Assembly (NCBI GenBank): GCA_022450665.1
Contig: JAKUPQ010000016.1
Location: forward strand, 1 to 37,654
Direction of reading: 5' to 3'
Length of the DNA stretch: 37,654 nucleotides
From: Alphaproteobacteria bacterium
GTDB taxonomy: Bacteria > Pseudomonadota > Alphaproteobacteria > Rickettsiales > VGDC01
A program made the translations under genes and the position numbers. Positions 10,474 to 37,180 of this stretch are shown here, one piece after another. The notes below the pieces were generated by a model. It was not told the origin of the DNA. It did not search any database and saw nothing but the letters and a program-made list of their open reading frames with translations. The stretch's first letter is position 1, and each line of letters opens with the position of its first letter.

Positions 10474-10995
10474 ATGACAGCAAATATTTTACATGAAACC
10501 GAGCGTTTAAAGCTTATCGAAGAAGATGGCTGGCAATATGTACAGCGCAAAAATGCCAGCGGCATCGTTATCATGGTCGCCGTTACTTCTGAAAACGCAC
10601 TTGTTTTGGTAGAGCAATATCGTACGCCAGTACATGCGCGAGTGCTGGAGCTTCCTGCCGGAATAGCAGGTGATATTAACGCCAGCGAAACATTGGCAGT
10701 GGCGGCCAACCGCGAACTGGAAGAAGAAACGGGTTATTATGCCCATGATGCAACATTGTTGTTCGAAGGCAGTGTATCGCCCGGACTTGCTAGCGAAACT
10801 CTGACGTTTTTCTATATGAACAAATTAGAAAAACGCGGCAGCGGTGGCGGGGTGGATGACGAAAACATTACGGTACATCATGTGCCATTGGCCGAAGCCG
10901 AAGCTTTTTTTACGCAGTTTCGTAACAACGGCGGAATGGTAGATTGCAAAGTTTATACGGGATTGCACTGGGCGCAGCAACAGTGCAAGGCTTAG
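10474..10995 (+). CDS. NUDIX hydrolase, ADP-ribose pyrophosphatase-like
   Basis: 173 residues. The Nudix box is complete, running from Gly in AGDINASE to RELEEETGY (G-x5-E-x7-REUxEExGU). The upstream EQYRTPVHARVLELPAG segment is typical of the ADP-ribose / NDP-sugar pyrophosphatase branch (NudF-like). It starts eight bases after the polymerase stop, so both are probably one operon, possibly linking damage tolerance with nucleotide clean-up. Its TAG stop is interleaved with the TAA of the convergent 1258-residue gene in a TTAG. Confidence 0.9.
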   Translation: MTANILHETERLKLIEEDGWQYVQRKNASGIVIMVAVTSENALVLVEQYRTPVHARVLELPAGIAGDINASETLAVAANRELEEETGYYAHDATLLFEGSVSPGLASETLTFFYMNKLEKRGSGGGVDDENITVHHVPLAEAEAFFTQFRNNGGMVDCKVYTGLHWAQQQCKA

Positions 10996-13900
10996 CGGGT
11001 ATAGCTGGCTTGCTGATCTTGGCCAGACAACAAGCGCGATTGGTGGCTATCAGCTGGCGGCTGCGAAAAACCGCCCCGCGCCACTTCATTGGCAATAATT
11101 TCACCAAAGCGGCCATCCACCTCATGCTGTGGCATTTCATCGTGCTGCGGTTTTAGGTTACGGAAAATTTGTTCTTTCGCTGCCTTCTGATACTTTTGCA
11201 CCAGATTCTCGCTATCTTCTTTCACACGATCTTCGGCCAGCTCGCAAAACTTTTCGTTCACCACATTAGCGTAGCGTATCACCGCTTCGGCAGAGGCGCG
11301 CTGGTATTGCTTTTCTTCATCATTCCACTGCAGCATTTCACCTTCACGCAAGGAATCATCGTTACCAAGCACCGTAAATTGATTGCCGTTTTTGCCTTCA
11401 ACCGGCACACCATGAATTGCAAAACCTGCATTTGCCGCCTGATCGTTCATAAATTCAGACATGGCGCGTAGTTGCTTGCGATCAAGCACTTTATCTTCCG
11501 GTGCAACATAGGTAAGCACATCCAGATTATTAGCGTTGTCTTGCAGCATACTATGCACAAAACCCAAGCTAATCACCGCATCGCTCAATGTGCTAACAGG
11601 CTTATGTAATGCGCGCTCCATCACATCTTCTACCGCTTCACCATTTTTCCCTGCATTGAGTGCGTTAAAAATACGGGTGGAATTATCCACCATCTTCGCG
11701 CCAATCTCATCGCAGAATTGTTTCATCAATTCGTGGTCGGCATCTTCGCGCAATTCTCTTGGTTTAGCCGCAATGCGTGGAATATCTTTAAATTCATCTT
11801 TCTTTTCGAGGGCAAGCATATCGGCATGAATCTGGTTGGATTCCACCATTTTATTGCGCATATCCCCATCCAGCTCACCGGCGCTGGTAATCGCACCTTC
11901 AATCAAACTTGATGCAAGGTTAGTTTCGTTGATGATATGGCGGCGGCGTAATACGGTTTCGTTAATAGCCTCTTTTGCCGTTACCAGACCTTTACTATAC
12001 AACACCGGATATACAGCCGTCTTAAATGCGGCAGAATATAAACCCGACCGTGAGAACAGATCTTCTTGGTGCTGTAATTTATTGTATACCAGCCCGGGTA
12101 AAAGACAAGATACGGCCTCTCCTTTAGAGCGACCAAACAATTTGCGCACTTCGTGCTTAACTTCTGGATGCTCAAGGTTTTGTTTAATATTCTCACGCAA
12201 ACTGCTTGGCTTGCGCTTCACTTTATCCTGCCATTTGCCAGTTAGATCTTCTGAAACTTCTGCTTTATCTTTTAGCTGCGACTCTAGCGTGGATTTTTCA
12301 TTGCCTATATCATAATGCAATGTACCAAACAGTGAGTCTTCAATCTTACCGAGATATTCCTCACTATGTTTGCCTTTTACGGCAAAAAGCAGATTATCAA
12401 TATCGACATATTTTTTTAGCTCTTCGCTCGCAACATTGGCATAGCGAATGAGGGTTTCTTCGCTGGCGGCTTCTAATTTTCCGGTCTTTTTGTTGCGCTC
12501 CACTAACTCACCGGCCTCAACGCCGTCTACTTCGCCTTCTTCAGCAACCGATAAACCCGCAGATTTTGCCTGCTTATCTACAAAGTTACCAAGTTTTCTT
12601 AAATCGCCATGTTTAATTAAAAGCTGACTAGGATCGACATATTCCATCGAGGCGGTTTTATCAGCATTAACCTCAACAAAGCTCTGCACATAGGCCAGAG
12701 AAATCATTGCATCTGCCATATTCTCAGCTGGACGACGCAGCACGCGTGTGACCACCTCGTCCATGCTCGACACTCTGTCGGGTTTTACATCCACTCCATA
12801 AGGCGACAGCGCTTCTTCTGCCATAGAAAGACAAACTTCGCTCAGCTCTTTGTAATATGCACCCAGCACTTCGTAATCTTCTTCGCTTCGGTCTTGAGGT
12901 TTTTTGGCCGAAATTTCCGGCAAACGCTCTTTATACACGTCTTTTTTCATCAAATCCTGAATAGCAGGATGTGGCCCATCCATCGCCTCCATACGCTCCG
13001 CTACTTCCGGTGCGTGACGATGTCCGGCTTTAATGGCGGCAGTTAATACCGTATCTGCCCGCTCTGCTGCATCCAGTGCAAATCCTTTTGGCACATGGTA
13101 TAACTCTTGCGATGCCACCGTACCTATAGAGGCCGCTATAGGCGCGGTAAACAAACGAAATGTGCTTGATTTCAAGTTACTTACAAAGTCTTCTTTATCC
13201 AAAAGTGGATTGAGTTTTTCTGTAATGATGGGATCGCCATCATCATCAAGCACTTTGCGCCCCTTATCGTCCAGCGCATACATAGCTGAAGGGCCGAAGG
13301 TAGAACTCAGCTTTTTTCCATCGCTTCCAGCGGCTTCCATCAGGTTATCCAGCCCCTTACCTTCACGCAGGAAGCTTTTAAGCGCCTCGTCCAGAACTTT
13401 TACGGGATAGCTCACCAATTGCCCTGCCACGGCACGTCCAAAGAGCTTTTGATTTTCGAACATGGCTTGTGGGCGCGTTATGTGTTTTGCAGCAACGGTA
13501 GCAACGCTACCCACGCCCTTCATCATGTCTATGGGCGATGTATGGCGTCCTTTATCCCACACATCTTTCAGCTTGTCTTGAAACTGCGAAACGCTGGATC
13601 CCTTAGGATGATGCTTATCCCACACAGGAATCGGCGCGGGCGCAGGATCTTCTTGCGAGCGTGAAATAGATTCTTCGATCTCATCAAAGTGTTTATCGAC
13701 ATAGCGCAGCATATTCTCGATTTTGCCGCCCAGTTCGGTATTGATATAACCATGAATAGCATTCGCAAACGACATGGTTTCAGCCTGCGTCAATTTTTCG
13801 TGGCCGGTGATCTCGCCAGTTTTTGGATTATGCGTTTGCTTAACCATCATGCCTTCTGGCACATCATCAAACGGGCGTGGGTTGTTGTTTAATGATACAT

Positions 13901-14768
13901 TAGGTATAAACCCACGGCTATCCATTTGCTTTTCAACAAAATCTGAAAGCTTTACCGCATCTTCCGGCGGCATGAAGATATCGCTTTGCGGTATATACAT
14001 TTCGGTGCCAAGCGGGGTTGCAGCATCTACCATTACCGCTGCTACAAAACCCGAAAGGATTTGCGCCTGACGTGGAGTGGTAATGCTGTCTAAGCGTATC
14101 ACATCGCGAATATAACCTGAGGCTTCATTGCCATCGCCCCGCGCTTCGGCCTTGGCACGCGCTTCGGGATCGCGGATTTTATCATAGGCCTCACGCATAT
14201 CGGCTTTTTCTTCGCACAACGCCGACATCGCAGACAGATGGTTTTGTAATTTCGCTACATTTGTAGGGCTCATATCCAAACGCCCATGCACAAACTCATC
14301 AAGCAAACCACTGGCCTCGGCGGAATGGTTCACCAAATCATAAACCGCATGTGAGCGGCCATCTTTAATTTCTTCGCTGAGTTTTTTTGGAGCGTTGTCA
14401 AACGATTCTGCTGCCATGCCAAAGCCTTCTAAGGCACGGGAGGCATTATGCACATCACGGAAATCTTTGTTGTTGCTATAGGCAAAAGCGAAAGAGCGCA
14501 CAAACTGCCCGCCACCCGCACCGATGAGTGCATCATCAATAAAGCGCCATGCCGCAGCATCAAACTCGACTTTTTTAACTTTTTTCTGGCTAACAGGATC
14601 GCGCTGGATCAGATCCGGACGCAGCAAATCGTTTTGAATTTGGGTCAGGGGGTAATTTACGATGGCATTAAAGAGCCTGCGTTTAGTTACAAGCTCAGTC
14701 TGAAACCGCTGCTCATGGTTATATGCAGCGAACTCCCACCTATCCTGCCACTGATCTAATACGCTCAT
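10992..14768 (-). CDS. 1258-residue protein of unknown function with a repeated module
   Basis: No known domain, signal peptide or clear membrane helix is recognised. The protein is internally repetitive. Residues ~520-800 and ~895-1190 align over their length: both have a charged block (MKKDVYKERLPEISAKKP against LEKKDEFKDIPRIAAKP), then MADAMISLAYVQSF against LSDAVISLGFVHSM, then a YVxPxxxL...FxxxQAxxAGF segment, and LIRYANVASEE against VIRYANVVNEK. A third, more diverged copy of the last ~130 residues is at ~217-347 (ILSGFVAAVMVDA, then YIPQSD, DFVEKQMDSRGF). The ends are polar; the C-terminus is Gln/Ser-rich. A TATAAT -10 element is at 14813-14818. It could be a large cytoplasmic scaffold or a secreted effector; neither is shown. 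Confidence 0.75.
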   Translation of the reverse strand: MSVLDQWQDRWEFAAYNHEQRFQTELVTKRRLFNAIVNYPLTQIQNDLLRPDLIQRDPVSQKKVKKVEFDAAAWRFIDDALIGAGGGQFVRSFAFAYSNNKDFRDVHNASRALEGFGMAAESFDNAPKKLSEEIKDGRSHAVYDLVNHSAEASGLLDEFVHGRLDMSPTNVAKLQNHLSAMSALCEEKADMREAYDKIRDPEARAKAEARGDGNEASGYIRDVIRLDSITTPRQAQILSGFVAAVMVDAATPLGTEMYIPQSDIFMPPEDAVKLSDFVEKQMDSRGFIPNVSLNNNPRPFDDVPEGMMVKQTHNPKTGEITGHEKLTQAETMSFANAIHGYINTELGGKIENMLRYVDKHFDEIEESISRSQEDPAPAPIPVWDKHHPKGSSVSQFQDKLKDVWDKGRHTSPIDMMKGVGSVATVAAKHITRPQAMFENQKLFGRAVAGQLVSYPVKVLDEALKSFLREGKGLDNLMEAAGSDGKKLSSTFGPSAMYALDDKGRKVLDDDGDPIITEKLNPLLDKEDFVSNLKSSTFRLFTAPIAASIGTVASQELYHVPKGFALDAAERADTVLTAAIKAGHRHAPEVAERMEAMDGPHPAIQDLMKKDVYKERLPEISAKKPQDRSEEDYEVLGAYYKELSEVCLSMAEEALSPYGVDVKPDRVSSMDEVVTRVLRRPAENMADAMISLAYVQSFVEVNADKTASMEYVDPSQLLIKHGDLRKLGNFVDKQAKSAGLSVAEEGEVDGVEAGELVERNKKTGKLEAASEETLIRYANVASEELKKYVDIDNLLFAVKGKHSEEYLGKIEDSLFGTLHYDIGNEKSTLESQLKDKAEVSEDLTGKWQDKVKRKPSSLRENIKQNLEHPEVKHEVRKLFGRSKGEAVSCLLPGLVYNKLQHQEDLFSRSGLYSAAFKTAVYPVLYSKGLVTAKEAINETVLRRRHIINETNLASSLIEGAITSAGELDGDMRNKMVESNQIHADMLALEKKDEFKDIPRIAAKPRELREDADHELMKQFCDEIGAKMVDNSTRIFNALNAGKNGEAVEDVMERALHKPVSTLSDAVISLGFVHSMLQDNANNLDVLTYVAPEDKVLDRKQLRAMSEFMNDQAANAGFAIHGVPVEGKNGNQFTVLGNDDSLREGEMLQWNDEEKQYQRASAEAVIRYANVVNEKFCELAEDRVKEDSENLVQKYQKAAKEQIFRNLKPQHDEMPQHEVDGRFGEIIANEVARGGFSQPPADSHQSRLLSGQDQQASYTR

Positions 14769-27414: not shown

Positions 27415-27852
27415 CTAAGCAGTGGCTTTCAGAGCTTCTTCAATAGTGATTGGAGCATCCGGTGTCCCCACTTTCACAAATCGTACAGTACTTTCAGAGC
27501 CGTCGCTTGCTTCGATAAGTGTTAAAATACGTGCCGCTTTTTCACGGACTATTTGCATTTTAGGGTCATTGATAATTTCTTCTTCTGGGCGTTTTGCGTC
27601 AATAGCATCCATAACGTCAGACATGCTCTGCAAGGTCTCGGTAATGGGCTTGCTGATAATGACTTCGTTCTCTTTCATTAAATCACCGATACCGCAGTCA
27701 TCAAAAAGCATACATGCTGCTTCAATAAACGAAATGGTCATATCTCCTGATACGGCACCTCCTTCGGCCCATGCACGTAACTGATAGTTTTTGTTTTCTA
27801 TCTCTCTTAGGACCCCAATTATGTTCTCTAGATAGATGGTAATTATATACAT
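27415..27852 (-). CDS. Immunity-family paralogue 1
   Basis: 145 residues, acidic. It shares the motif block NDPKMQIVREKAARILTLIE, then ASDGSESTVRFVKVGTP and PITIEEALKATA with four other genes in this island. The N-terminal half is variable but keeps W, a SFIEAACMLFDD segment and EVIISKP. It is closest to paralogue 3 (29198). It starts 12 bases after a small toxin fragment. I take the family as immunity proteins from their position after toxin domains and from the array layout; no database family is claimed. Confidence 0.7.
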   Translation of the reverse strand: MYIITIYLENIIGVLREIENKNYQLRAWAEGGAVSGDMTISFIEAACMLFDDCGIGDLMKENEVIISKPITETLQSMSDVMDAIDAKRPEEEIINDPKMQIVREKAARILTLIEASDGSESTVRFVKVGTPDAPITIEEALKATA

Positions 27853-27864
27853 CTCAACCGCGCT

Positions 27865-28104
27865 TCAAAAATAGTTGAAATCATCAAAGGGAATATGTGT
27901 CTTATTGGGATCAATAGATGGCTGGCCATGTATGTCTAGCCATTGCCCATCTTTAACCCAACGCACATACTCACTTTTGGCAAATGTGTATTTGGATTTT
28001 GAGTTGCCTTTTTGTGCACGCACATACTGACATCCCGTAGGCGCTGGCTGAGGTTCATCTGCTATATTTTTTCTTCGAAAGAGCTTTATAAATTTAGCTT
28101 GCAA
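27865..28104 (-). pseudogene. Small toxin fragment without delivery module
   Basis: 79 codons from a TTG, following directly after the stop of paralogue 2 in the same frame. The last half (YVRWVKDGQWLDIHGQP and HIPFDDFNYF) resembles the C-terminal toxin domain in this array (NVRWQKDGKSLDKNGN and HIPIEDFKF). No MuF linker is upstream. It could be an orphan toxin cassette that has lost its 5' part, or a small standalone gene with TTG start. It lies 12 bases upstream of immunity paralogue 1. Confidence 0.55.
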
Positions 28105-28110
28105 CCGTTA

Positions 28111-28563
28111 TTAAGCAATAAGTTTAGCCCAATATGGCTCAATCATCAAAGCATCTTTAAGGCTGATAAACGTATCTGTGGTTCCGGCTTCCACATAATC
28201 TACCGTGCTTTCAGAGCCATCGGTGGATTCAACTAGTTCGAGCACTTTGGCGGCTTTTTGACGCACGATTTTCATTTCTGGTGTGTCGATGATTTTATGT
28301 TCGGGTTTATTATAGCCAACCTTATCAACAACTTTATTCAATTCACGTAATGCTTGATCCGCTTCTTTACTAAAAATAATCTCGTCTTTCGTATATAAAA
28401 TCTTCTCTAAGTCATAATCGTCAAAAAGGTCGCTTATATTTTCACCATAGGAATAGCATAATCCTTTATCGTTTTTAAACCACGCCACTTTTTGGAAATC
28501 TCTGCTGGCTAAAGTGCGCAAATGATCAATGACGTTTTCTGGACATATTGAGTACTGGCTCAT
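28111..28563 (-). CDS. Immunity-family paralogue 2, cognate of the orphan cassette
   Basis: 150 residues. Its N-terminus (ENVIDHLRTLASRDF and ISDLFDDYD) pairs it with paralogue 5 as a subgroup, and it keeps the shared C-terminal block (MKIVRQKAAKVLELVE, TDGSESTVDYVEAGT). Its ATG overlaps the stop of the orphan toxin cassette by four bases, the usual toxin-immunity coupling. The role is inferred from that and from family resemblance only. Confidence 0.72.
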   Translation of the reverse strand: MSQYSICPENVIDHLRTLASRDFQKVAWFKNDKGLCYSYGENISDLFDDYDLEKILYTKDEIIFSKEADQALRELNKVVDKVGYNKPEHKIIDTPEMKIVRQKAAKVLELVESTDGSESTVDYVEAGTTDTFISLKDALMIEPYWAKLIA

Positions 28564-29197
28564 TTATATTTCTCCAAATCAAATCGCTTAAAGTCTTTCA
28601 AAGGTATATGGGATTCTTCTGATTTTAGCTTTACCCTGTTCCCGTTCACATCATAGCTTTTGCTTTTAATCTGCACACGCGCATTATCAACTCGTTGTCC
28701 GGGGTTCGAGCTATTTGGATCGCCTTTGGACACTTTTATATAGGTATGCCCTTTGGACTTAGGATCTTTGTATATATACCCTTTTTCATCTTTGCTGCGC
28801 TCTTTCTTCCATGATTTCGGTGTTCCTTTTACCCGTTTAGCAATGCGGGTTTGGAATATTCTGACCAGTGCAGTGTCCATACTTGCCGTTGCTTCTGCAA
28901 GGAATGCTCTCGCAGCAAAGGCAGAAATCACATAGAATTCTGGATATACTGGCTCAATCGCATCTTCACGTAACAGCGCTTCAATTTCTTCTTGCGAACG
29001 TGCACGAATCGGGCGGGCGACGCAGCGGCAGTTATAATCCTCGCCGGGGTGTCCGGTTTCTGGTGGGGAATCCCACGCAAATATTTTTCCGTCATTTACA
29101 GCATGGGCAGAGCGTACTTTTTCATCATCCGCCGTTGTCCATACATAATGGGATATATCCGAATCCGCCTGCCGTATGGTGCACAGTATGAGAGTTT
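28560..29197 (-). pseudogene. Orphan MuF-toxin cassette without a start codon
   Basis: The open frame continues upstream of the GTG at 28931 to about 29197, and translates to the MuF region: IRQADSDISHYVWTTADDE, FAWDSPPETGHP, GEDYNCRC, then VISAFAARAFLAEAT, SWKKERSKDEKGYIYK, KDPKSKGHTYIKVSKGDP and a C-terminal SHIPLKDFKRF. It corresponds to residues ~308-431 of the main MuF protein plus an uninterrupted ~80-residue toxin domain. There is no ATG at its upstream end, so it is silent unless recombined. 44 bases (29134-29177) are identical to 31177-31220 of the main gene and end sharply. A GTG start at 28931 for a shorter protein cannot be excluded. Confidence 0.75.
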
Positions 29198-29629
29198 CTA
29201 AGCAGTAGCTTTTAATGCTTCTTCAATAGTGATGGGAGTATCAGGCGTTCCTGTTTTGACAAATCGCACTGTGCTTTCGGAGCCATCACTTGCTTCAATA
29301 AGCGTTAGGATGCGCGATGCTTTTTCACGCACTATCTGCATTTTGGGGTCATTGATAATTTCTTCTTCAGGACGGCGCCCGTCAATCTCATCAATTACGT
29401 CAGACATGCTCCGCAATATTTCGGTGACGGAGCGGCTGATTATAACTTCATTTTCTTTCAATAAATGACCTATGCCGCTGTCGTCTAAAAGAACGCACAC
29501 AGCTTCAGAAAAAGAGCCAACAAAGTTGTGTGGATTATCGACATTTAACCAAACATTAGTTTGATATTGCTTATCAGAAAGCTCTTTTAAGATTTCTATA
29601 ACATTTTCTATATATATTTGCTCGTTCAT
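29198..29629 (-). CDS. Immunity-family paralogue 3
   Basis: 143 residues and nearly the twin of paralogue 1 in the C-terminal 75 residues (NDPKMQIVREKASRILTLIE and PITIEEALKATA), with a more diverged N-terminus. The ATG (29627-29629) overlaps by ATGA the stop of a toxin tail remnant that reads APNIPLKDFKFNPDIFR. The DNA directly after its stop carries the start-less orphan MuF cassette. Expected to be a cytoplasmic antidote; not proven. Confidence 0.7.
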   Translation of the reverse strand: MNEQIYIENVIEILKELSDKQYQTNVWLNVDNPHNFVGSFSEAVCVLLDDSGIGHLLKENEVIISRSVTEILRSMSDVIDEIDGRRPEEEIINDPKMQIVREKASRILTLIEASDGSESTVRFVKTGTPDTPITIEEALKATA

Positions 29630-29682
29630 CTGAATATATCCGGATTAAATTTAAAATCTTTTAGTGGGATATTTGGTGCGTA
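29626..29682 (-). pseudogene. Toxin C-terminal tail remnant
   Basis: The frame WKYAPNIPLKDFKFNPDIFR ends in TGA, which overlaps the ATG of paralogue 3. It matches the ends of the toxin domains in this array (SHIPIEDFKFDPRKFK, SHIPLKDFKRFDLEKYK). Only the last ~18 codons survive; they are joined in frame, after a TAA, to the shortened end of paralogue 4. A deletion removed everything between. Confidence 0.65.
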
Positions 29683-29688
29683 TTTCCA

Positions 29689-30102
29689 TTATGGTTGCAA
29701 CACTTGTAAGGTTCCTTCTTCAAGAAAAGTGACCGTATTTTCAGATTTATCGCTGGATTCTATCAACTTTAACACTTCTGATGCCTTTTGCCGGACAATT
29801 TCCATTTTAGGGTCATTGATGACTTCCATCGGTCTACGGCCATATTCTTCCAGAGGTTCAATGGCGTTCCATAACTCTTGTAACGCGACAGTTACACGCT
29901 GATCGTAAATGATTGCATCTCTACCTAATGCATCACTTAAGAGTGAATCATCCCAAAATTGTATAGCCGCTTCAGTAAAAGAGGTGACCCAACCCTCAGG
30001 ATTATCCTTGTTAGCCCAAATGCGTTCTTGAAAATCACGGTCGGATAACTCGGCTAATGCTTCGAAAAGATGATTTTTGAATATTTCAGCGCATTCTATC
30101 AT
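29689..30102 (-). CDS. Immunity-family paralogue 4, C-terminally truncated
   Basis: 137 residues. It keeps the core NDPKMEIVRQKASEVLKLIE and SSDKSENTVTFLEEGT, but instead of the usual TPDxPITIEEAL end it stops after LQVLQP, at the joint with a toxin tail remnant. Just upstream of its ATG the other frame reads LEFNKDLF followed by TAA, which shares the A with the ATG, possibly another toxin end. The loss of ~15 C-terminal residues may or may not abolish function. Confidence 0.65.
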   Translation of the reverse strand: MIECAEIFKNHLFEALAELSDRDFQERIWANKDNPEGWVTSFTEAAIQFWDDSLLSDALGRDAIIYDQRVTVALQELWNAIEPLEEYGRRPMEVINDPKMEIVRQKASEVLKLIESSDKSENTVTFLEEGTLQVLQP

Positions 30103-30123
30103 TAGAATAAATCCTTATTGAAT

Positions 30124-30609
30124 TCAAGTGCTGTATAACAAATACTTGTCTTTAACTAGAGGTTTGGCAACTAAGCTTTTTTTCACCTCTTCGAGTGCAT
30201 CTTCAATAGAAATAAGAACGTCTGGTGTTCCTGTTTTAAGAAATTCAATTGTGCTTTCAGAGCCATCACTGGCTTTAACCAATTTGAAAGCCTTAGTTGC
30301 TTTTTGGCGCACAGATTCCATTTCGGGTAAATCAATATTCCCACGTTCAACTTTAGCAACGTCAACGTTATCTATTGCATCACTTAACTCACGCAAAGCC
30401 TTGTCTGCTTCATGGCTGATCACGACGACTCCTTCTTCGTACAACGCTTTTTTGACATCACCATCATCAAAAAGATCGCTGATTTCACTACTAAAAGAAG
30501 ATGCGATACCCTGATCGTTTTCAAACCATCCAACGAGCTGAAACTCTTTACTAGCTAATGCAAGTAAATCTATTAAGAAGTTTTCTGGATATATAGCATA
30601 GCCGCTCAT
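30124..30609 (-). CDS. Immunity-family paralogue 5, cognate of the main MuF toxin
   Basis: 161 residues. Its N-terminus (ENFLIDLLALASKEF, EISDLFDDGD) matches paralogue 2 and its C-terminal block (ESVRQKATKAFKLVKASDGSE, FLKTGTPDVLISIEDAL) the whole family; a ~20-residue basic tail is unique. Its ATG overlaps the toxin-domain stop TGA as ATGA, so translation would be coupled to the toxin if the in-frame TAA were read through or reverted. Immunity role inferred. Confidence 0.75.
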   Translation of the reverse strand: MSGYAIYPENFLIDLLALASKEFQLVGWFENDQGIASSFSSEISDLFDDGDVKKALYEEGVVVISHEADKALRELSDAIDNVDVAKVERGNIDLPEMESVRQKATKAFKLVKASDGSESTIEFLKTGTPDVLISIEDALEEVKKSLVAKPLVKDKYLLYST

Positions 30610-32138
30610 TTGAATTTCCTCGGGTCAAATTTAAAATCTTCAATTGGTATGTGAGACTCTTGTGATTCTTTTGGCACAATATTGCCGTTCTTATCTAGCG
30701 ATTTTCCGTCTTTCTGCCACCTTACATTATCGTATCTTTGTCCCGGCCGAGAACTTTTTGGATCACCTCTGCTGGTTTTAACGTAAGTGTGTCCTTTTGA
30801 TTTAGGATCTTTGTTAATATAGCCTTTATTATTGTCTGTCCGTTACTTTTTCCAGTTTTTGGGAATGCCATTAAAGCGTTTAGCAATACGGTCTTGGAAT
30901 ATTCTTGCCAGTGCATTGTCCATATCGGCGGTGGCACGAGCGAGAATTCTACGTGCTGCAACTCCTGAAATCACATAAAACTCAGGATAAACGGGTTCAA
31001 TCGCATCTTCTCGCAATAATACCTCAATTTCTTCCTGTGAGCGTGTGAGAATTGGGCGGGCGATGCAGCGGCAATTATAGTCTTCGCCGGGATGTCCGGT
31101 TTCGGGCGGAGAATCCCATGCGAAGATTTTCTCGTCATTCTCTGCATGGGCAGAACGTACTTTTTCATCGTCTGCTGTTGTCCATACATAATGGGATATA
31201 TCCGAATCCGCCTGCCGTATCTCGCTGAGCTTGCCATTGAAATGCGTTGCCAGCATATCAATTCTGTAGGGAATGGTGGTGTCTTGGTAGAAGGCTCTCG
31301 CCAATTCCATATGTTCCATGATTTGCGTAGCGTTTTTGCCTTGCGTGCCCAATTTCGCAAGCTCCGCTTCGAGCATAGTAGTTGCCCCGTCCTCTATCGT
31401 ACGAGCATAGACAGAAGAAAATGCCTCAGTTGCTTCTGGTATAGTGTGCGATTGGGAGATATCTGATTTCTGGCCAAGCAGTGCGGTGTGCATATCTGCA
31501 TTGATCCACTGAATCTCATCAGCAATAGTTTTGGCGATCACTTTCAGCGGAAACGCTATTTCGGGCAGCAATTGCTCTAATGGCATACGCTGAAAATGCT
31601 CGCGTATGGGCTGGATGATGTAATCAGGTGTAGGAATCTCATTTAACAGAATGCCGAAGGTATTGAGCATTTCTGCCTGAGCACGACGCCTGCGAACGGC
31701 TTTGTCATGTTCCAATACATTATCGGTTTCTGGTAGAGAATTATGCAGAACTTCCCACAGTGCATAGATTAAATGCTGCTTGGTGTTTTCTTTTTTAGCC
31801 AGCTTCGCTTCAACATATGCATGGATTTGGGAGTAAAACGCAGTCGAAACATCGACCAATCTGGGATTTTCATAATAGAGGTGTTCTATTGCCAGCTGTT
31901 CGTTAGGCAGTAAATCTGTCCAAACTTCACCGTATAATACCGTTTCCAAATAGCCTTGATTATTGCCCAGTGCCACATGGTAAAGCTGTGCTTCAGCATT
32001 TTTGGTCGTGTCCGTTCGGTGGGGAAAATAATGCGAAATTGCAGTATCGCGCATCGCATCATATGCGTGTGCAGTGAAAGGCTTAAGGCGATTTGCGTTT
32101 GATCGCAATTGCCGTATATCGGAAAAAGTGTAGCTCAT
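30606..32138 (-). pseudogene. MuF-type polymorphic toxin gene interrupted by an in-frame TAA
   Basis: Residues 1-431 (stop TAA at 30843-30845) form a phage Mu F-like / SPP1 gp7-type head-morphogenesis protein: the signature is at 306-358 (SDISHYVWTTADDEKVR, H331, then PG and NCRC with C356 and C358). After the stop, the same frame continues for 78 codons: RTDNNKGYINKDPKSKGHTY, VKTSRGDPKSSRPGQRYDNV, RWQKDGKSLDKNG and a final SHIPIEDFKF. The orphan copy reads WKKERSKDEKGYI where this one reads WKK-stop-RTDNNKGYI, so one GAA-to-TAA change explains the break. No ATG lies inside the toxin domain, so it cannot be made separately. The first ~300 residues are helical and not recognised in detail. No portal, terminase or capsid genes are beside it. 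Confidence 0.8.
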
Positions 32139-32402: not shown

Positions 32403-33152
32403 TTAAGATACTTTGGCTGGCAATCGTGCAAAGAACCAATCGGTTAAGGCGGTTGACAGGCACGCCATAAACCATAGCGGTACATATAGCTGCCATGGGA
32501 ATACAATGCGTGAGCGGTTGCGACTTAAGCCAGAACGGATAATCTTAGCCGCTTTTTCCGGCGACATAATAAACGGCATAGGAAATGTATTGGTTTCGGT
32601 GAGCGGGGTTTTTACATAGCCCGGGCAAATCACGTTGACCTTCACACCACTATGGCCAAGTTGGCCGCGCAAGCCCTCACCTAAGCTACGCACTGCCGCT
32701 TTACTGGCTGCATATGCCGGGGCGCTGGGCAAGCCACGTATGCCAGCCAAGGAGCTGACAATCGCAATTTGCCCCGCTTTTCGTGCTGCCATACGTGGTG
32801 AAACAGGCAATATTGTATGCAGCACGCCCTGAACATTCGTATCGAAAATGCGGTAGGTGCTTTCCGCTTCGTTGCCGCCACTACCACCAGATATGCCTGC
32901 ATTAGCAATAAGCAGGTCAATGGGGTTTTGCTCATCAAAATGACACAGCCAGTCTTCCATAGATGCTTTGTCACATATATCGATACTCGCGGTTTTCAAC
33001 TTTGCACCTTTTGCCTCACATGCCGCTTCCACTTCAGCCAGTCGCTCGCTATTACGCCCCAGCAATCCCAAATATACATTTTGTTCGGCATATTCTTTTG
33101 CCAATGCCGCGCCTATTCCGCTACTTGCACCGGTTATCACAATGGTTTTCAA
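32403..33152 (-). CDS. Short-chain dehydrogenase/reductase
   Basis: 249 residues. The Rossmann motif TGASSGIG is at residues 7-14, the structural NAGISGG follows near residue 86, and the catalytic pair is Tyr/Lys in YAASKAAV with a preceding Ser in IVSSLAG. The C-terminus (~215-240) is hydrophobic (LYVPLWFMACLSTALTDWFF) and could anchor the enzyme to a membrane. The start is TTG (33150-33152), supported by AGAGG eight bases upstream; an ATG-CTT-TGA mini-frame sits in between. Substrate unknown. Confidence 0.88.
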   Translation of the reverse strand: MKTIVITGASSGIGAALAKEYAEQNVYLGLLGRNSERLAEVEAACEAKGAKLKTASIDICDKASMEDWLCHFDEQNPIDLLIANAGISGGSGGNEAESTYRIFDTNVQGVLHTILPVSPRMAARKAGQIAIVSSLAGIRGLPSAPAYAASKAAVRSLGEGLRGQLGHSGVKVNVICPGYVKTPLTETNTFPMPFIMSPEKAAKIIRSGLSRNRSRIVFPWQLYVPLWFMACLSTALTDWFFARLPAKVS

Positions 33153-33300: not shown

Positions 33301-36300
33301 ATGGTTAACGATACTAAGAAATCAAAATCTAAAAACACCCCCCTGGATCAAGAAATTCCATTCGGGGGATGGTCTAGCGATAATGTAGGGTCAACATCTA
33401 ACGATGACAATGCACAAACAGACTCTGTTGAAGAAACTGCTCCCGCGCCTGTCAAAAAAGAAGAAACGGGCATCCGCAGCTTTTCAGATGCGTTTGGAAA
33501 AAATGCAGGAGATAAGCCGATAGAGCTTCCACCTGCAGAAGAAGTGCTCGATCCGGATGAGCTATCTAATACTGGTGGTGCAAAACGCCCTTCAATTGCT
33601 GTGCCCAAAGCAACAACTCAAGAATCCGACGAACTTGAATCCACTGATGAAGAATGGAGCACACAAAAAGAAGAGGAGGAAGAGGAAGAGAAAGAAGTAG
33701 ACCCTTTTGCATGGTCGCAAGAAGACATTCCTGCTGACAACACTCCCCGCACCCGCAGGAGAGAAATGGGCGAAGATGCAGGATGGATGGCTCCCACTAC
33801 TGATTTATCGCAATTTGAAGAATCTAGTTATGATTACAGCAAGGAAGAAAAAGAAGAAGAAATTATTCCGACTGTAAACCCCTTCACTTTCAATAAAAAA
33901 GAAGAATGGCAAGCACCGCCAATGTCGGTAGAAGACCTGATGGATAACGATACGGACGTGGGAGCTGAATTGCAAAATGACAGCAATTCAAACCAAAAAA
34001 ACAATGCCGAAACATTATCGCCTTTCAATTTTGTAACTCTTGGAAAAACACAGGCCAATACAGAACAGCCTCAGCAACAAGCTACAATTGCGCAACCGCC
34101 TATCACTGATCCGATCGTGCCGCAGGAAAATGCCTCCCAGCCCGACATTATCCCAGATGCAGATATTGCACCTCCACAGCCGGAATCTTTGCCAGAGCCC
34201 GCTCAGCAGGCCGAGAATTATAGTGACGATTTTGGTGAGGAATCGCTTCAGGCAGGGGAAAGCCAATCAGAACTCCAACCTGAAACACCATCATCAGCAC
34301 ATGATATTTTTTCCCAAGGCAATCCCCCTGAAGCCGATACAAACACAATTGCCACGCCCGAAGAAACTGCTTTTGCGCAGCCCCAAACATCTTCGCCTGC
34401 TGCAATTGAAGAAACACCTGCACAAACTCCTGAAAGCACTTCAGGTTTTGGCAAATCCACCAAAACCAGCACCCCGCCAATTGAGGAAAAAACGCCCTCC
34501 AGCAGTGATATTTTCTCAGACAACATCCCCCCTGCCCCCATGCCTGAAGATACGCATATGGAAGGCACGGCCAGTGTAGAAGCACCTGTCGCTACCAACC
34601 CCATTGTAGAAAAAGCACCCGATGCGGCACCTGCAACCAATTACACGCCATATACTGCCTCTCAGGCGCTCTCTGATGAACCCGAGGACAATGCTCCAAA
34701 AGCGGTCGTAACCTCAGTTGACGGCTCACAGCGCACAGCAATGGCCGAAGAACTGAACATGCCTAAATACGATCCAGATGCTGCATCTTCGTCGCCACAG
34801 CCAGATAGAACTCCCGCTATTGCGTCAGAGCCGGAACCTCAACCCAAGGCAGTTGAAACTCAAGATTCATCAGCCGCATCGCCTCTCACAGCATCGCAGG
34901 ACAATATAAATACCGGAGGTCAGGAAGCTGCATTGGCTGAAGAAAACGCTCCCGCTGCATTCAACAATCCATTTGTGGCAAGCACACCAGCCGAACCTGC
35001 TTTTGTACCCAGTATTGAAGCAGATGATGCCATAGATACTACACAAGGCGCAATGTCGGCTCATCAACCTGCCAAGCAACCCGAGGTTGCAGATATTTTT
35101 GGCCAAACTACCGAAACACCCTCAGCTACCGAAACACCTGCAGCAGCTACAGCTCCCGCTGGTCAAGATGATTGGATGGCTAACGAATCCAGCCGTCACC
35201 CCTCTACACCGCCTATAGAATCCCCAGTAGAAGCAGTTGACGATCCTTTTCAGGAAGCTACACATGAACAACCTGCGCCAGATTCTCAAAGCTACGATCA
35301 AGGGCAGAGCGATCAAGCAGCATCAGACATATTCAGCACAGATCAAGCCAGCCCGGAAGAACCGGCACAGGAAGAGCTTGCTACCCCTGCCCCGCCGCCT
35401 ATGGCCGTACCCATAACCAATAACGATGCAGGACAACCACCTGCTGGTGGCATGGATATCAATCATATTCTGCAAGAGCACATCAATTGGCTGCACAGCA
35501 ATGGCAGAGATGGCCGCCGTGCAAATTTCCGCAATGCTGATTTGCAAGGCTACAATCTCACTAATTTACAATTAACCGAAGCAAGCTTTCGCGGCGCAAA
35601 CCTGTCCAATGCCAGTTTAAGCGGCAGTGATTTACGTGGCGCAGATTTATCTGAAGCAATTTTTGAGAATACCGATTTACGCAATGCAAATTTGGCCTCT
35701 GCCGTAATGAATAGCGCAGATTTGCGTAGTTCTCATCTTGCTGGCGCCGACTTGCAAAGCGCCGATCTTAGCAGCGCTGTAATGGCAGGTATGATTTTAT
35801 CAGGCATTAATTTCGCTGCGGCTATCCTGCAAGATACTAATTTAGAAAGCGCTAATCTCACACAAGCGAATATGCAAGGCGCAAATTTGCGTGGCGCTCA
35901 GCTTTCTGCTGCAAACCTTACTGCCGCCAATCTGGCTCAGGCCAATTGCCGCGATGTGCGCTTCGATCAGGCAATAATGGATAATGTAGCCCTGACTGGC
36001 ACCAACATGAAAAATGCAAGTATGGCTGGCGCAAGCCTTGCAGGCGTTGATATTGCAGCCGCTGAAGAAACCTCTCAGGAACTTCGCCAAGAAAGTCTTC
36101 ATGCTGAAAAAAATCTTATTCAACAGGAGTGGGCGCGGGTTAAAACCTATGAAGATCAGGTTAAACAGCTCCAATCACAAATTCAGCAACGCGAAATGAC
36201 CCTGCAAACAGATCGCGCTAATATTGAACGAGCAAAAAGAGATATTGCCGATCAATATCAAGGTGTTGAAGCGCTTATGCAGAAAACTCACGAAGTAATG

Positions 36301-36579
36301 CAACGGCACCGTGTGCATGATAAGCTGTTTAAATATTTTGGTATTATGTGGTTTGTCTTCACCATCCTGGCCTTTGTATCTATCATGATGTTTGTACAGG
36401 CCATTGATATTGCCGATTTAAACTGGCTGGCTTTATCGATTGTTGTTGGCGGCTGCGGACTTATTATGGGCTTATTTATTGCCACCAGTATCCGCAGCAT
36501 CAAGTTGTCTAATAATCTTAAAAAATTATTAGATGTATATGAACAGCAACTTCCCAATAGCGATAACACCGGACATTAA
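33301..36579 (+). CDS. Membrane-anchored pentapeptide-repeat protein with long disordered N-terminus
   Basis: 1092 residues. Residues 1-715 are low-complexity, acidic, Pro/Glu/Ser/Thr-rich and probably disordered. Short motifs recur in them: DPF at 134 and 648, NPF at 193 and 556, SPF at 240, and DIF at 335, 403, 598 and 676. About residues 741-915 are pentapeptide repeats of the A(D/N)Lxx type, forming a right-handed beta-helix. Residues ~920-1003 form a coiled coil with Gln/Glu/Arg, followed by two membrane helices at ~1009-1033 and ~1043-1063 and a short C-terminal tail. The N-terminus is therefore probably cytoplasmic, because both ends should lie on the same side. I recognise the architecture, not a function; a scaffold at the inner membrane is the best guess. 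Confidence 0.85.
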   Translation: MVNDTKKSKSKNTPLDQEIPFGGWSSDNVGSTSNDDNAQTDSVEETAPAPVKKEETGIRSFSDAFGKNAGDKPIELPPAEEVLDPDELSNTGGAKRPSIAVPKATTQESDELESTDEEWSTQKEEEEEEEKEVDPFAWSQEDIPADNTPRTRRREMGEDAGWMAPTTDLSQFEESSYDYSKEEKEEEIIPTVNPFTFNKKEEWQAPPMSVEDLMDNDTDVGAELQNDSNSNQKNNAETLSPFNFVTLGKTQANTEQPQQQATIAQPPITDPIVPQENASQPDIIPDADIAPPQPESLPEPAQQAENYSDDFGEESLQAGESQSELQPETPSSAHDIFSQGNPPEADTNTIATPEETAFAQPQTSSPAAIEETPAQTPESTSGFGKSTKTSTPPIEEKTPSSSDIFSDNIPPAPMPEDTHMEGTASVEAPVATNPIVEKAPDAAPATNYTPYTASQALSDEPEDNAPKAVVTSVDGSQRTAMAEELNMPKYDPDAASSSPQPDRTPAIASEPEPQPKAVETQDSSAASPLTASQDNINTGGQEAALAEENAPAAFNNPFVASTPAEPAFVPSIEADDAIDTTQGAMSAHQPAKQPEVADIFGQTTETPSATETPAAATAPAGQDDWMANESSRHPSTPPIESPVEAVDDPFQEATHEQPAPDSQSYDQGQSDQAASDIFSTDQASPEEPAQEELATPAPPPMAVPITNNDAGQPPAGGMDINHILQEHINWLHSNGRDGRRANFRNADLQGYNLTNLQLTEASFRGANLSNASLSGSDLRGADLSEAIFENTDLRNANLASAVMNSADLRSSHLAGADLQSADLSSAVMAGMILSGINFAAAILQDTNLESANLTQANMQGANLRGAQLSAANLTAANLAQANCRDVRFDQAIMDNVALTGTNMKNASMAGASLAGVDIAAAEETSQELRQESLHAEKNLIQQEWARVKTYEDQVKQLQSQIQQREMTLQTDRANIERAKRDIADQYQGVEALMQKTHEVMQRHRVHDKLFKYFGIMWFVFTILAFVSIMMFVQAIDIADLNWLALSIVVGGCGLIMGLFIATSIRSIKLSNNLKKLLDVYEQQLPNSDNTGH

Positions 36580-36583
36580 TTCT

Positions 36584-37180
36584 ATGGCTCATAGCTCATC
36601 CACGCGCCCCGATAAGCGCTCTTTATGCGTGTTTTGCGGTGCGCAAAATGCCGTTGACGCCCAGCATCTTGACATGGGTACTAAAGTGGGCAACTCCATT
36701 GCACAGTCCGATTTGCGTTTGGTATTCGGTGGCGGTGATTGTGGAATGATGGGCGCAGTCGCCAATGCTGCCATGGATGGCGGCGGCGAAGTAATTGGCG
36801 TTTTCCCCCATCATTTACGCGCACATGAAGCTGAACACACCGGAATTACCGAAACTATTATTGTCGGCAGCATGCACGAGCGCAAAAAACTCATGTTTGA
36901 TTTATCCGATATGTTTGCCATTTTGCCCGGCGGATTTGGCACTATGGATGAAATGTTTGAAATTCTTACATGGCGGCAAATTGGCCTGCATGAAAAACCT
37001 GTATTTATATTTAACCATCTTGGCTATTGGGATCCATTGATTACAATGATGGAGCACATCATAGACAAGCGCTTCGCCAAACCTGTAAACCGAGATTTCT
37101 ATCAGGTATTTGAGACACTTGAATCAATGATGGAAGCTGTAAATTCCACACCACTAAAAAAAATCCTGCTAAACCCATAA
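36584..37180 (+). CDS. LOG-family nucleotide 5'-monophosphate phosphoribohydrolase
   Basis: 198 residues from ATG 36584; the longer frame from 36533 overlaps the end of the pentapeptide gene and has no support. The catalytic motif PGGFGTMDE and the nucleotide-binding VFGGGDCGMMGAVA are present, as are the usual CVFCGAQ start and MHERKK segment. Family activity: releasing adenine-type bases from nucleotide monophosphates (cytokinin activation in plants; purine turnover in bacteria). It starts four bases after the previous gene and is probably co-transcribed. Confidence 0.92.
   Translation: MAHSSSTRPDKRSLCVFCGAQNAVDAQHLDMGTKVGNSIAQSDLRLVFGGGDCGMMGAVANAAMDGGGEVIGVFPHHLRAHEAEHTGITETIIVGSMHERKKLMFDLSDMFAILPGGFGTMDEMFEILTWRQIGLHEKPVFIFNHLGYWDPLITMMEHIIDKRFAKPVNRDFYQVFETLESMMEAVNSTPLKKILLNP

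Follow-up and report, generated by a model that had tools for sequence, protein, structure and literature searches.

A membrane-anchored pentapeptide-repeat protein with a Phe-motif-bearing acidic tail beside a LOG-family gene in Rickettsiales

The window analysed here is positions 1 to 37,654 of contig JAKUPQ010000016.1 (assembly GCA_022450665.1), from an alphaproteobacterial genome assigned to Rickettsiales. Near its end, an ATG-start ORF on the forward strand (33301..36579) encodes a protein of 1092 residues, in which short Phe motifs, some of them known from eukaryotic endocytic proteins, are spread over a long acidic tail in front of a membrane-anchored pentapeptide-repeat body. What could such a protein be doing in a bacterium, and do the motifs matter to it?

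Domain architecture and orthologues

From the N- to the C-terminus, the protein comprises an acidic tail of ~715 residues, a pentapeptide beta-helix with its cap, one long helix and a hairpin of two membrane helices (Pfam and AlphaFold; all coordinates for this gene are on the forward strand). The match to PF00805 (E=3.9e-36; 122.6 bits, cut-off 20.2) places it in the pentapeptide-repeat superfamily, whose tandem A(D/N)LXX repeats form a right-handed beta-helix. In the AlphaFold model of residues 712-1092 (mean pLDDT 87.6, pTM 0.59), strands recur every five residues in the pentapeptide region, and Foldseek searches with this model match the folds of HetL, MfpA and Qnr (E down to 2.6e-13). Invariant columns, model strands and Foldseek together place the N-cap helix (H..WL.S.GRDGRRANF) and the right-handed beta-helix at residues ~720-914 (35458..36042). 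A single long helix of ~109 residues (residues ~926-1034; 36076..36402) leads in the model from the beta-helix into membrane helix 1, and Kyte-Doolittle peaks mark membrane helix 1 at residues ~1013-1031 (36337..36393) and membrane helix 2 at residues ~1043-1061 (36427..36483). Both termini would be cytoplasmic according to the positive-inside rule, since the hairpin carries Lys and Arg on each of its outer flanks and its two helices are joined by a short acidic loop. No hydrophobic N-terminal segment was seen in the hydropathy profile of the 1092-residue protein. A preliminary description of this DNA had read a pentapeptide helix, a coiled coil and two membrane helices from the sequence; Pfam bears this out for the repeats, and AlphaFold and hydropathy confirm a long helix and the two membrane helices. 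It had also called the combination unusual, which it is, but it is not a one-off, as the family recurs within the order.

Using a profile of the core, we were able to identify the full architecture in 18 of 344 genomes of the order, the window's own included (E from 1e-152 to 6e-66); beyond those 18, the matches listed were bare pentapeptide matches alone. The 17 orthologues come from the same order, apparently Rickettsiales, where they are spread over five family-level groups; their cores are 19-30% identical to that of the window protein, and all of them keep the pentapeptide region, long helix and hairpin. Eight columns are invariant across the 18 aligned sequences, including the H, WL, G and R of the N-cap. 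We define the family by the cap (H..WL.S.G..GRR), the pentapeptide helix, the long helix and the two C-terminal membrane helices, all of which the window protein has. A four-sequence core alignment led to named relatives in Rickettsiales bacterium PL25a_bin.132, Alphaproteobacteria bacterium UBA6178 and Alphaproteobacteria bacterium D1_Bin_43. Outside the order, the profile search of 385 genomes of the class returned nothing full-length at E<=1e-50, and the search of plasmid DNA returned no relative; neither did a scan of the genome collection with the full-length protein, probably because its automatic patterns lay mostly in the variable tail. The other genome of the source's family that was examined (G001, 89% complete) shows neither the pentapeptide gene nor the LOG orthologue. 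Phage matches were rejected as whole-protein homologues, their coverage being mainly the repeat and their identity low.

The LOG neighbour and gene order

The downstream gene (36584..37180, forward strand; likely start 5 bp past the upstream stop) encodes a LOG-family phosphoribohydrolase. It scores 177.3 bits against the TIGR00730 cut-off of 96.35, keeps the motifs PGGFGTMDE (pattern PGGxGTxxE) and RK, and resembles solved LOG enzymes (5zbj, E=4e-47). LOG lies directly downstream of the pentapeptide gene in 16 of the 18 genomes, window included (15 by clustering, plus G045 with LOG at C19:48731), and elsewhere in the genome in the other two (G020 and G040). All 18 genomes with the pentapeptide gene have LOG, versus 45 of the 326 others of the order (Fisher p ~6e-15, relatedness ignored). 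This gene order suggests a functional link between the pentapeptide protein and LOG; no description of pentapeptide-LOG pairs was found in the literature searched.

The upstream neighbour is a divergent short-chain dehydrogenase gene (SDR; 32403..33152, reverse strand) in the window. Across the genomes, either SDR or RadC takes this upstream place while LOG is retained, giving the order SDR/RadC, pentapeptide, LOG. Among genomes without the pentapeptide gene, SDR is directly beside LOG in another family (G023, G055, G110), and RadC is directly beside LOG in a genus within the family-level group f29 (G078, G112, G143). Judged by gene order, the pentapeptide gene is an accessory in front of LOG that can be cleanly absent, because SDR or RadC adjoins LOG in genomes without it; the basal part of the core tree is weak. 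By the same comparison the pairing is not obligatory, since 45 genomes have LOG without a detected pentapeptide gene, and in two of the 18 the gene lies apart from LOG. We note that LOG has SDR or RadC as its divergent partner in genomes without the pentapeptide gene, the same slot being cleanly filled or empty.

Elsewhere in the window, the reverse strand at 27415-32138 carries a gene for a MuF-domain protein (30843-32138) followed by five tandem paralogues of ~140-160 residues, one of them with a match to DUF7945. An orphan fragment (28560-28931) also follows; it opens with a repeat of the MuF protein's end and then runs on into a new tail. This arrangement is reminiscent of a polymorphic-toxin locus that holds an orphan C-terminal cassette together with immunity-like genes. 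A protein of 1258 residues encoded at 10992-14768 (reverse strand) has no Pfam, NCBIfam or PHROGs match.

Phenylalanine motifs in the tail

The N-terminal tail (residues 1-715; 33301..35445) is acidic and of low complexity, rich in P, A, S, T, E, D, Q and N (P 12%, A 12%, D+E 20%, K+R 5%), and its composition suggests disorder. It is the longest stretch of such composition among the 1447 ORFs of the genome sample (1.58 Mb, 64% of the genome). An ORF of 860 residues in this sample that had seemed disordered turned out to be a masked run of N. The ~700-residue acidic tail reported earlier is present, at the N-terminus and disordered as far as composition tells, and so is every one of its nine [DNS]-[PI]-F motifs: DPF at residues 134 (33700..33708) and 648 (35242..35250), NPF at residues 193 (33877..33885) and 556 (34966..34974), SPF at residue 240 (34018..34026), and DIF at residues 335 (34303..34311), 403 (34507..34515), 598 (35092..35100) and 676 (35326..35334). 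The tail also has one FxDxF (residues 61-65) and one DDFG.

The preliminary description would have given up its proposal had the motifs proved random in composition-matched shuffles, and they did not: none of 20,000 shuffles of residues 1-730 reaches nine (mean 0.74, maximum 6). DIF carries the signal (four observed, 0.06-0.07 expected; p ~0.001 after correction over all tripeptides), because DPF (two, 0.2 expected) and NPF (two, 0.11 expected) are each weak individually. Across the 1447 ORFs, the runners-up, a folded MlaA lipoprotein and a T4SS coupling protein, carry three [DN][PI]F each, and the other low-complexity proteins of the sample carry zero or one. Some Trp residues of the tail also stand in repeated contexts (EEWQAPP, DDWMANE, AGWMAPT), possibly a second motif type; three Trp are found in acidic or W[MQ]A contexts against 0.28 and 0.07 expected, for patterns picked after looking.

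The strongest rival to a function for these motifs is that the tail evolves fast and without constraint as an entropic spacer or bristle, that the body does the work, and that the F motifs arose by drift and local duplication; we give this a substantial chance, somewhat short of that of the docking arm favoured below. It is favoured by the orthologues, in which the tail is essentially absent from 10 of 17 and differs wholly in composition among the rest: four tails are poly-proline (G028, G005, G095, G077), two are Ala/Pro/Glu-rich (G020 and G040, the latter truncated by its contig end) and one is mixed (G026). None of these seven tails has a [DNS][PI]F, an outcome that the preliminary description had itself named as refuting its proposal; a conserved motif code is not borne out, in relatives that are themselves distant (19-30% core identity). 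An apparent tail of G104 was disregarded as a product of where its sequence had been cut, since that protein is tailless. On these alignments the body is conserved and the tail is a lineage-specific addition. The spacer is further favoured by two DIF sites (residues 335 and 403, with similar flanks) lying in stretches of DNA (34302 and 34506) that share 72% of their letters over 29 nt, which may make the two sites non-independent, so that local duplication could inflate the motif count. What speaks against it is the count itself, which the shuffles never reach, the standing of DIF after correction over all tripeptides, and the at most one such motif in the other tail-like proteins of the genome. 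Tandem duplication as the origin of the tail was considered and rejected, only weak repeats being found. In another family, orthologue tails hold long poly-proline runs (e.g. PPPPPPPP) in place of F motifs.

Docking by the tail motifs onto a putative partner is plausible because the motifs are too many for chance, and it is their enrichment that argues for it, because neither motifs nor tail are conserved in the orthologues. The earlier suggestion of a multivalent docking tail thus stands in so far as it fits non-random motifs and a probable cytoplasmic location; the docking step itself is one that we infer.

A proposed scaffold at the membrane and its alternatives

If the tail docks, its partner might be sought outside the bacterium. 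The tail could mimic eukaryotic endocytic ligands, with NPF motifs for EH domains and DPF and FxDxF motifs for the AP-2 ear. The rvh type IV system would then move the protein, which would recruit the adaptors of a protist, be it host or predator; we consider this highly improbable. We find it just as hard to credit that, in this deep branch of the Rickettsiales, the tail is a mimic of a eukaryotic endocytic array (NPF, DPF, FxDxF) that reaches a protist by delivery or by exposure and recruits its adaptors. The motif content (two NPF, two DPF, one FxDxF and one DDFG) is what such mimicry would use, yet the commonest motif is DIF, which to our knowledge is not a canonical endocytic ligand. Eps15/epsin-type endocytic tails share the tripeptides and the acidic low-complexity setting, whereas the tail here is without a clathrin-box motif and its DPFs are not consecutive. 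The Eps15 reader (a mu-homology domain) needs two consecutive DPFs (PMC4731787), and the only two here (residues 134 and 648) are 514 residues apart. The motifs occur in no orthologue found, and the protein carries a membrane hairpin of its own and is encoded beside a metabolic gene.

The source genome (2.48 Mb; GC of 46% in the window) has two VirB4 genes, and the putative effectors of Rickettsiales are taken to include pentapeptide proteins (PMC10847448), both of which would suit delivery. Its features are fitting for basal Rickettsiales as described, lineages that retain the rvh T4SS and are proposed to be free-living or facultatively host-associated (PMC9352585, PMC10847448), and this likeness to proposed free-living or facultative lineages (PMC9352585) counts against mimicry. 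So, weakly, does the ATP/ADP translocase search, which gave no match in the genome and none for its control either. In the bacterium's own genome, weak negatives were also obtained for the EH domain (no match; the control matched nowhere) and the adaptin-ear domain (no match; the control matched weakly). No bacterial NPF/DPF mimics were found described in the literature searched. With motif-free orthologues and non-consecutive DPFs, the endocytic-adaptor parallel drawn in the preliminary description is not supported.

Could the body be a known pentapeptide protein? One close likeness is HetL (All3740, PDB 3du1), which has the same right-handed beta-helix and is among the top PDB matches. The NCBIfam HetL model matches residues 734-930 (E=7.5e-35), at 120.4 bits against the equivalog cut-off of 260, and solved HetL is small and without the tail, long helix or membrane hairpin found here. 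The repeats of the Salmonella effectors PipB (E=1.2e-19) and PipB2 (E=9.4e-19) also match, below cut-off (70.6 versus 274 and 67.5 versus 354 bits), and these are effectors, while the LOG neighbour points to a housekeeping context. The topoisomerase-binding proteins Qnr and MfpA share the fold, whereas the protein here is membrane-anchored; it falls below the equivalog cut-offs of Qnr (50.7 versus 240 bits), MfpA (48 versus 360) and the secretion-machine part DotG/IcmE (28.8 versus 750). That it is a relative of DotG/IcmE or of Qnr/MfpA is very doubtful: DotG/IcmE does match in sequence (NCBIfam E=3.2e-07, PDB profile 3.1e-26) and MfpA and QnrB1 in fold, but these matches are essentially confined to the repeat and far under curated cut-offs, the protein is anchored in the membrane at its C-terminal end, and its gene has no secretion genes as neighbours.

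We favour, tentatively and at slightly less than even confidence, a reading in which this protein of basal Rickettsiales serves as a scaffold at the inner membrane, works with LOG and uses its tail as a possibly multivalent docking arm. Counted in its favour are the body kept in 18 genomes, the linkage to LOG and a motif count unique in the sampled genome. The two C-terminal membrane helices would anchor the protein in the inner membrane, the long helix would hold the pentapeptide beta-helix on the cytoplasmic side, where it would offer a conserved surface for interactions, and the N-terminal tail would reach further into the cytoplasm. In the source lineage the tail would have gained its repeated Phe (and some Trp) short motifs, which are probably weak multivalent docking sites for the bacterium's own cytoplasmic protein or proteins. 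The conserved body may be a membrane-held scaffold or regulator of LOG, a role suggested because both body and LOG partner gene are conserved. A bacterial scaffold that works in a similar way is the C-terminal scaffolding region of RNase E, which is disordered and in which short linear motifs assemble a complex (PMC11964227); its motifs differ and we claim no homology.

These results define a family of pentapeptide-repeat proteins with a membrane hairpin, seen here in one order only and linked to a LOG phosphoribohydrolase. A functional pairing would point to a nucleotide-cleaving enzyme under membrane-tethered control in early-branching Rickettsiales, and if the F motifs bind a partner, the tail would be another bacterial multivalent short-motif tail beside the few known.
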